Source: an uncultured Pelagibacteraceae bacterium
GTDB taxonomy: Bacteria; Pseudomonadota; Alphaproteobacteria; Pelagibacterales; Pelagibacteraceae
Assembly: GCA_902553675.1 (NCBI GenBank)
Contig: CACDLV010000005.1
Coordinates: 1-46,969, forward strand
Length of the DNA stretch: 46,969 bases
Direction: 5' to 3'
The notes under the pieces are model-generated. The model made no database searches and was not told the DNA's origin. It worked only from the letters and a program-made list of their open reading frames with translations. Position numbers and translations under genes: made by a program. Of this stretch, positions 33,596 to 35,702 are shown one piece after another (the stretch's first letter is position 1; each line of letters begins with the position of its first letter).

Positions 33596-34381
33596 ATGGC
33601 TTTAACAGCTATACCAGTAGGTTTTGTTGCTGGATTATTCGGTATCGGCGGAGGATTGATAACTGTTCCTTTTTTATATTTTATTTTTGGCTCTTTAGAA
33701 ATTGATCCTCGATATGTTATGCACCTTGCTGTAGGAACTTCCTTTGCAATTATAATACCAACATCTACAGTTTCAGTTTTAACACATCATAAATTTAAAG
33801 CAGTTGATTTTGATATTGTTAAGAATTACGGCTTGTTTGTTGTACTAGGTGTTATTGTTGGTACTGTTTTTGCAGCTTCTTTAAAAACCAAGTCTTTGGT
33901 TTTATTCTTTTCTATAATGATCTTATTTTTAGGAATTTACTTATTATTAATAAAAGAAAAGAAACAAAACATAATTGTTAAAATGAAATTACATCTAAAA
34001 GTAATTCTTGGTTTTCTTGTTGGGTTTATATCTGCTCCTATGGGCATAGGAGGAGCTGTAATGAATGTTCCTATTCTAAAGTTTTTTGGTTATTCAATAA
34101 ATAAAGCAATAGGAAGCGCAGCAGCTATAGGATTTTTAATTGCTTTATTTGGAGCAATAGGTTTTTTAATTTCAGGAAATTATTTAAATTCAAGTCTTCC
34201 ACTAAGTATTGGTTTTATAAATCTGCCTGCTTTTTTAATTTTTATACCGATTACAACTTTCATGGCAAGGATAGGAGCTAAAACAGTTCATAGTATCGAT
34301 AAAAATAAAATTAGTAAGTTTTTTGGAATTTTTCTTTTAGTGGTGTCGATTAAATTTTTTTACGAATATTTAAAATTATAA
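33596..34381 (+). CDS. TSUP/TauE-SafE family membrane transporter
   Basis: PVGFVAGLFGIGGGLITVPFL and GFISAPMGIGGAVMNVPIL duplicated motif. Confidence 0.9.
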   Translation: MALTAIPVGFVAGLFGIGGGLITVPFLYFIFGSLEIDPRYVMHLAVGTSFAIIIPTSTVSVLTHHKFKAVDFDIVKNYGLFVVLGVIVGTVFAASLKTKSLVLFFSIMILFLGIYLLLIKEKKQNIIVKMKLHLKVILGFLVGFISAPMGIGGAVMNVPILKFFGYSINKAIGSAAAIGFLIALFGAIGFLISGNYLNSSLPLSIGFINLPAFLIFIPITTFMARIGAKTVHSIDKNKISKFFGIFLLVVSIKFFYEYLKL

Positions 34382-34386
34382 TAAGC

Positions 34387-34425
34387 AAAAAAAAAGAGGT
34401 GACTTCAGTCTCCCTCCATCACCTC
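34387..34425 (-). terminator. Strong rho-independent terminator on the minus strand
   Basis: Minus strand reads GAGGTGA-TGGAGGGAGACTGAAG-TCACCTC followed by nine T (plus-strand A-tract 34387-34395). Confidence 0.7.
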
Positions 34426-34560
34426 ACTAATCCAAACTAAGTGATTCTTTAAATATTTATGAACACTTATTAGTTGAAAATGTTATTTATCAACTAATTT
34501 AAAATCGTACAATCTTAAGTTGTATTTACTCTTAAATAAAAACTCAAATTAGCCACACAT
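34387..34560 (-). ncRNA. Candidate structured small RNA (5' end not defined)
   Basis: No ORF; ends in the minus-strand terminator; upstream hairpins 34438-34469 and 34470-34497 and alternative pairing 34494-34500 with 34546-34552. Confidence 0.4.
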
Positions 34561-34598: not shown

Positions 34599-35702
34599 AT
34601 GGTTTCAATAAAAAACATTAATAAAAATATTAAAAAAAATTTATTTGATCCAATCGACAAAACAAAACAAAAGTTTTCCTCAATTTTAGAAGATTTTAAA
34701 AAAAACAAAGTCAAAAAAGATTTAGCATTACAAAAACAATTAGAAAAAGAAAAAAAAAGAGAATCAATTTTAGAAAAAAAACTAGCAAAAAAAGCTAAAC
34801 AAGATGAGCTCAAAGCAGAAAGAAAAAAAATCCTTTTTCAAAAAAAATTAATCATTGAAAATGAAAAACAAGAAAAAAAGAATGAAGAAAAAAGACAAAA
34901 AATAGAAGCTCAAAGAATTAAAATAGAACAGAAAAAAATTAAAGACGAAGAAACAAGAAAACTTAGAGAGGAAGCAAGAAAGCTTAAGCAAGAAGATTTA
35001 AGGCTGAAGATGTTAGAGAGACAAAGAATTAGAGAAGAAAATATTAAAATTAAAGAAGAGGAATTAAAAAATAAAGAGATAGAGGCTCAAAAAAGAAGAG
35101 ATGAAAAAGAAAAGGAAAGACAAGAGAAATTAAGATTAAAAGAAATTGAAAGTAAAAATAGACTTGAGGAAGAACAAAGATTGAGAGAGGCAGCTAGAAA
35201 GCTGAAATATGAGCAAGAAAAACTTAAAGAAATGGAGCAAAGATTAAGAGATCTAGAAAACGAAAGACAGCAAGAAATTCAAAAACAGATTTTACAAGAG
35301 GAAGCTGAGCAAAGAGCCAAGGAAGAAGAATTAAGAATTAAAGAAAAAGAACTTAAAGAAGCAGAACGTGAGAGAATAAATCGAGAAAATGAAAGACGTC
35401 AAAGAGAAAGAGAATTGAAAATAGAGGAGGAAAGACAAAAAAGAATTGAAGAAGAAAATGAAAGAATTCGACTAGCTGAAATAGCTCAAAAAGAGAGAAT
35501 TGAAGAGGAAAATAGGCGAATGAGAGAATGGGAAAAAAAATTTGATGAAGAACAACGGCTAAAAGAAGAGGAATTGGTTAGAAAGTTTTATAGCGATGAA
35601 ATTCCTGAACAAGAAAACAATCAGGATGGCGATAATTTAGAAACTAAAGCTGATAACGATAATTTAGAAAATAAAAATGATGAAGATAATTTAAAAAATT
35701 AA
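34599..35702 (+). CDS. Highly charged E/K/R-rich coiled-coil or single-alpha-helix protein
   Basis: ORF with long runs of E/K/R and no Gly or Pro in the central part; ATG at 34599 preferred over TTG 34584. Confidence 0.7.
   Translation: MVSIKNINKNIKKNLFDPIDKTKQKFSSILEDFKKNKVKKDLALQKQLEKEKKRESILEKKLAKKAKQDELKAERKKILFQKKLIIENEKQEKKNEEKRQKIEAQRIKIEQKKIKDEETRKLREEARKLKQEDLRLKMLERQRIREENIKIKEEELKNKEIEAQKRRDEKEKERQEKLRLKEIESKNRLEEEQRLREAARKLKYEQEKLKEMEQRLRDLENERQQEIQKQILQEEAEQRAKEEELRIKEKELKEAERERINRENERRQRERELKIEEERQKRIEEENERIRLAEIAQKERIEEENRRMREWEKKFDEEQRLKEEELVRKFYSDEIPEQENNQDGDNLETKADNDNLENKNDEDNLKN

Follow-up and report, generated by a model that had tools for sequence, protein, structure and literature searches.

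The window, by which we mean the whole 46,969-nucleotide stretch of DNA that we analyzed, comes from an uncultured Pelagibacteraceae bacterium. No open reading frame covers the gap between its TSUP gene and the coiled-coil gene that follows, as a sequence-only reading of this DNA had claimed. That reading had also proposed a structured small RNA on the minus strand of the gap, and the stem and tail it described are both present: nine A's (34387-34395; nine U's in a minus-strand transcript) lie beside GAGGTGA (34396-34402), which faces TCACCTC (34419-34425). The features of the locus are as follows.

33596 to 34381, plus strand: TSUP (TauE/SafE) gene, PF01925, the convergent neighbor.
34384 to 34497, minus strand: the whole conserved block, matching covariance model R1 with 115.3 bits.
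34387 to 34395, minus strand: nine-U tail, which makes the hairpin an intrinsic terminator here; many relatives, not all, have a U-tail.
34387 to 34427, minus strand: likely transcript of about 40 nt, predicted from conservation of the upstream block.
34396 to 34425, minus strand: conserved hairpin with stem GAGGUGAU/GUCACCUC, seen in sequence, covariation, and fold.
34416 to 34405, minus strand: hairpin apex GAGGGAGACUGA, near-invariant in host RNAs and in host plus phage.
34434 to 34439, minus strand: -10-like TAGTTT (consensus TAWWWT, first T and A invariant), from the alignment of copies.
34443 to 34447, minus strand: GAATC, a GANTC (CcrM methylation) site, from the alignment of copies.
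34464 to 34476, minus strand: dyad CAACTA-A-TAAGTG, a candidate protein-binding site over the -35 region, judged by conserved spacing.
34599 to 35702, plus strand: accessory coiled-coil gene with a highly charged product, the divergent neighbor; many relatives do not have it.

At the gathering threshold, Rfam 15 matched only a tRNA in the window and nothing at the hairpin block. At a relaxed threshold, the best subthreshold match by E-value was AniS, with 21.8 bits against the 50 required. Thus, Rfam agrees with the sequence-only reading, which had recognized no family. A coding explanation was rejected: the tiny frame across the apex is interrupted in relatives, with a stop codon in one of them (L062).

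Both the 174-nt minus strand (z = -2.75) and the isolated 41-nt hairpin (z = -2.79) fold more strongly than shuffled sequences. Across 127 distinct host copies, stem bases swap while pairing is kept (A-U/G-C, U-A/C-G, and G-C/A-U). In 32 diverse copies, 98.6% of cells are paired and five pairs show double changes; the covariation score of 0.50 compares with 0.28 for shuffles and a ceiling of 0.23 for slid partners. On the minus strand there are 82 G-U cells and 13 A-C cells, all 13 of the latter beside the internal loop, and when the pair beside that loop is omitted the counts are 19 and 0. Because G-U cells exceed A-C cells there, the minus strand is the RNA strand. These patterns indicate that the hairpin at 34396-34425 is real and functional and is under selection as RNA, and the claim of a structured minus-strand RNA was borne out.

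The apex consists of the non-canonical pairs G84-A95 and A85-G94 (a tandem G-A), then G-U and G-C, closed by a GAGA tetraloop. We found G84-A95 in 125/127 host copies, A85-G94 in 124/127, G86-U93 in 126/127, and G87-C92 in 127/127, and GAGA as the loop; these copies were collected via the apex, so that its constancy is partly selected, and model-based searches agree with it. RNA hairpins that are recognized usually show this combination, a non-Watson-Crick apex that stays constant while the stem changes freely. The exposed loop GGAGGGAG of the sequence-only reading is mostly paired or structured, and the suggested Shine-Dalgarno-like base-pairing through an open loop has no support. The same reading had called the hairpin a strong terminator. 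This is right for the window with its nine-U tail, but several relatives keep the hairpin without a U-tract, and the U-tract is therefore non-essential. Two further stems were not confirmed. The AAGTG...CACTT stem at 34438-34469 is conserved in sequence, but good pairing is restricted to close relatives; TTAGTTGA/TCAACTAA also pairs in close relatives but is absent beyond those and unsupported across genera. We found no support for a mutually exclusive switch between the latter and an alternative AAATTAG/CTAATTT hairpin.

When the region was compared by BLAST with 151 genomes of the genus, matches fell mainly in the TSUP-proximal ~92 nt (34387-34478), even where the flanks were unmatched. We built covariance model R1 from 42 representatives. 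It matched 145/248 genomes of the family, 73 in the window's genus, Pelagibacter (g1), and 71 in a sister genus (g4); the one remaining match, from a third genus, is weak and comes from a genome whose contamination is estimated at 8%. Among 142 genomes drawn across the class, R1 matched none except the window's own. The exact hairpin matches in named genomes all belonged to Pelagibacteraceae or Pelagibacterales among the matches listed. The block was not found outside Pelagibacteraceae in the genomes searched here. It is single copy, except in two genomes (G201 and G302) that each hold a second, degenerate copy. Model R2, which describes the hairpin only (8 host and 19 phage sequences), found one copy in each of 10/10 genomes of the genus, the window's included, and none (0/12) in genomes of another Pelagibacterales family. 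We rechecked 20 near-complete congeners without the block at a relaxed threshold and saw no credible match; all absence counts derive from draft genomes under strict filters. Presence of the block switches at least three times on a pgm tree; gain or loss has happened repeatedly.

The genes around the block differ. In some g1 genomes it directly follows pgm; in the window and others an opposite-strand coiled-coil gene lies in between. This accessory gene, between pgm and the RNA block, had no match in a Pfam search. That the block belongs to the coiled-coil gene as a plus-strand element was rejected: in many relatives this gene is missing and pgm is convergent. In g1 genomes without the block, the pgm and TSUP stops almost adjoin wherever a locus shows the two genes next to each other. 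In several congeners (L254-L257), two TSUP genes lie next to each other, with about 50-60% identity to that of the window. In g4, the block follows tRNA-Ser(GGA) and precedes a convergent NlpC/P60 gene, and in some genomes cargo of glycan type or of unknown type separates the tRNA from the block. That interval is an insertion site (L227, L228, L229, L233, and L235) holding methyltransferase, glycosyltransferase, and large unknown proteins; no recombinase was found among the g4 cargo genes that we scanned. The degenerate second copies (L233:6322-6435 and L239:4282-4393) sit beyond cargo genes, which are glycan genes in G201 and, in G302, the coiled-coil gene, a layout that would fit insertion of cargo together with its own copy of the block. 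In another genome (G173), which we take to be HTCC1062 and in which the block coordinates also match the published HTCC1062 coordinates, the block lies between a 536-aa gene and an HIT gene, exactly in intergenic region 1142870-1143031. The 536-aa neighbor is SulP by published annotation. Meyer et al. list this region between SAR11_1190 (COG0659) and SAR11_1191 (HIT) with no RNA assigned, and its 29 BLAST hits are under that study's cut-off of 200 (PMC2704228). That table is the sole entry that we found in the literature on this region or on pelagiphage hairpins or small RNAs (PMC2704228). Because the genera differ in neighbors and some close relatives cleanly do without the block, we read it as an autonomous RNA gene that cells can dispense with, and as no neighbor's terminator. 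Its being kept as a block of its own in differing gene contexts agrees with the earlier suggestion of an independently organized RNA with no gene to terminate.

We then considered the upstream half of the block. GAATC is at the same position in about 160/163 copies; the alignment is anchored on this motif, and three of the about 163 copies could not be anchored. The dyad, CAAYTA-N-TANNTG, lies 29 nt upstream of GAATC in 141/157 anchored copies, and the AT-rich filler between the two is fixed in length and free in sequence. TA occurs at +8/+9 relative to GAATC in 107/107 non-redundant copies, followed by W-rich bases, usually with T as the last of them, some 9 nt ahead of the hairpin. A divergent copy from a further genus (g10, L238) has GACTC in place of GAATC and so retains GANTC. 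No consistent base pairing was found in the upstream half across genera. The upstream half thus looks like promoter DNA, in which TAWWWT would be the -10 element, with a CcrM site immediately before it and the dyad covering the -35 region. If the promoter reading holds, the predicted transcript may be only about 40 nt long, with a putative 5' end about 7 nt past the -10-like element, and so would be shorter than the sequence-only reading proposed. The match to the -10 consensus is weak at its last base, which counts against a promoter-driven RNA gene. The window's genome encodes GcrA. GANTC is almost fully methylated in cultured Pelagibacter, a result for the genome and not for the site in the hairpin block (PMC9516812). 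DnaA-box-like sites (≤1 mismatch) occur upstream in 23/83 copies, versus a mean of 6.1 and a maximum of 14 in mononucleotide shuffles; this excess stems in part from g4. We rejected the possibility that other genes share the upstream block as their promoter: across 2.1 Mb of loci, mostly fetched because they bear the hairpin, the block was always accompanied by the hairpin.

When phage records were searched, only the hairpin came up, within unannotated gaps of pelagiphages and without the host upstream block. With three hairpin queries against 50,697 phage records, the only near-full-length match outside Pelagibacter phages was a poor one in a Klebsiella phage (E = 8). Exact stem-loop patterns found 51 + 11 contigs in IMG/VR (62 in total), an undercount because these scans demanded stems like the known ones; a pattern with a wider apex gave no matches in viral contigs. 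In the IMG/VR contigs the hairpin is intergenic and on the mRNA strand, and in nearly all of them its apex is 29-69 nt before the next start. We observed three contexts: the lysozyme/primase gap in T7-like Pelagivirus; in a second lineage, the gap between a phrog_2402 gene and a primase of a different family (phrog_21866); and, in other T7-like pelagiphages, the gap that separates capsid from tail tube A. The position upstream of primase is thus found in two unrelated phage lineages. The R2 alignment is 99.2% paired, with double changes in 6/7 stem pairs. R2 found exactly one strong copy in 12/17 cultured or fosmid pelagiphage genomes, or 13/17 counting the weaker match in HTVC021P (3.3e-6). 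The match in HTVC019P is 1.2e-7, and the hairpins of HTVC019P and HTVC021P are not themselves in the model. HTVC011P and HTVC008M gave marginal matches only, and HTVC010P, HTVC023P, and HTVC119P gave none. None of five control phages matched (T7, P-SSP7, Syn5, SIO1, and HMO-2011; 0/5). The phage hairpin is often preceded by another hairpin; in Pelagivirus, the lysozyme gene is closely followed by a second strong conserved hairpin, CGCTCCTAGTTAGAAATAGCTAGGGGCG, which precedes the shared one (L359-L361 and L418). In HTVC019P, an opposite-strand tRNA-Cys directly follows the phage hairpin (8899-9019; L418:500-620) and is possibly an attachment site. We rejected the hairpin as the transcript start from a repeated phage promoter, as the preceding sequence is unrepeated in HTVC031P and HTVC022P.

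Taken on its comparative evidence, the element is very probably an autonomous hairpin RNA gene on the minus strand. For its overall role, we favor at roughly even confidence an autonomous SAR11 RNA gene with a one-hairpin product whose near-invariant apex is read by a factor. A CcrM/GcrA-tuned promoter in the upstream block would drive an RNA of about 40 nt, the apex would be the recognition site for an RNA-binding factor, and the free host RNA would titrate or regulate that factor. Phages would place the same site before replication or tail genes, exploiting the factor or being controlled by it. A shared RNA-binding factor is favored because a constant non-Watson-Crick apex stands on a changing stem, with one free copy in the host and one copy in predicted phage transcripts. 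The hairpin common to host and virus thus probably marks an RNA-binding interaction used by both. That the host RNA acts specifically as a factor-binding decoy is a tentative proposal. The more elaborate version, in which the factor reading the phage hairpin is titrated by the host RNA and this RNA forms an arm of phage-host conflict tied to the chromosome cycle through CcrM/GcrA, is a long shot. Several observations sit poorly with the favored reading. Many congeners do without the block, and the phage hairpin has no repeated phage promoter beside it in the genomes examined. The site is also single copy in each host genome, which leaves no known host mRNA that bears it; a regulator of host mRNAs would not be expected to look like this. 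The sharing between host and phage could also reflect convergence, or gene transfer with different roles.

Several other explanations account for part of these data. The whole ~110-nt block might be a longer regulatory RNA starting near TTCAACTA, with CAAYTA, AAGNGU, and GAAUCA as single-stranded contacts and the hairpin at its 3' end. The block is conserved as sequence, a -10-like TTAATAAA lies just upstream in many g1 copies, and AAGTGTTC/GAATCACTT pairs in close relatives; however, the 5' half does not pair consistently across genera, phages carry the hairpin alone, and fixed spacing, free filler, dyad symmetry, and GANTC suit DNA better. We consider this longer RNA possible but unlikely. 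A similar doubt applies to an mRNA processing or stability element, an RNase site or end stabilizer between phage genes, with the host copy left as an isolated relic or serving as a substrate. It would fit the intercistronic position in phages, with the apex 29-69 nt ahead of the start codon in most contigs, and the other hairpin that often precedes the phage copy. General RNase sites would be numerous, however, and here each genome has a single copy and host mRNAs have none, so that we regard this element as rather unlikely.

A host anti-phage decoy, a free hairpin soaking up a factor that phage transcripts need, would explain the patchy, accessory presence in hosts, the variable or insertion-prone loci, and the hairpin common to host and pelagiphages. 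We judge it improbable: the genomes that we take to be HTCC1062 and HTCC7211 seem to have the RNA, yet both strains are infected by hairpin phages, and the GANTC promoter suggests housekeeping control. Degenerate copies flanking cargo in G201 and G302, tRNA genes nearby in g4 and HTVC019P, and DnaA-box-like sites upstream of some copies would suit a recombination or replication hairpin that acts as DNA and not as RNA. Such an element would not explain why one strand tolerates G-U and not A-C, why the hairpin is in mRNA sense in the phage contexts examined, or why many host copies have a terminator tail; with no recombinase in the cargo genes scanned either, we think it very improbable. Finally, the GC stem with its U-tract, and pgm directly upstream in some genomes, could point to an ordinary intrinsic terminator that serves pgm or stops antisense read-through. 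Terminator loops drift, but this apex is near-invariant; the hairpin is kept without a U-tract, and the upstream gene is variable or divergent. An ordinary terminator is thus hardly credible.

SAR11 cells rank among the most numerous in the sea, and few of their regulators are known. A lineage-specific RNA with a recognition element duplicated in pelagiphages offers a way into posttranscriptional control in this group and into the contact between phage and host. The predicted RNA-binding factor could be caught with a 40-nt hairpin as bait. Hfq is unlikely as the partner, because a search for PF17209 found none in five near-complete SAR11 genomes (G173, G012, G180, G082, and G194) or in the window's genome, while it was positive in five controls. 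An Hfq-dependent trans-acting small RNA was rejected for the same reason.

The hairpin resembles several known systems in part. CsrB/RsmZ-type decoys likewise combine a free RNA with a hairpin that is also found upstream of genes in mRNAs. However, CsrB-type RNAs have several CsrA-binding GGA hairpins, and here there is one hairpin, no CsrA-type consensus, and mRNA-borne copies only in phages. T7 late leaders (the phi3.8 and phi10 transcripts) have a 5' hairpin, comparable in that a hairpin follows lysozyme and precedes primase in a T7-like phage; however, R2 has no match in T7, the T7 hairpin has no such apex, and we found no T7 equivalent. As in GcrA/CcrM-regulated promoters, GANTC has a fixed position in the candidate promoter, beside a -10-like element, and GcrA is present. 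The rhtB element of "Ca. P. ubique" is likewise a conserved SAR11 hairpin/loop, about half of whose copies are followed by poly-U; its locus differs from that of the hairpin block, and we set it apart by locus and not by sequence alignment (Meyer et al. 2009, PMC2704228). The same study lists another GC-rich intergenic region of HTCC1062, between recA and a protease gene (626974-627168), with 1168 BLAST hits and no RNA assigned there (PMC2704228, Table 1).
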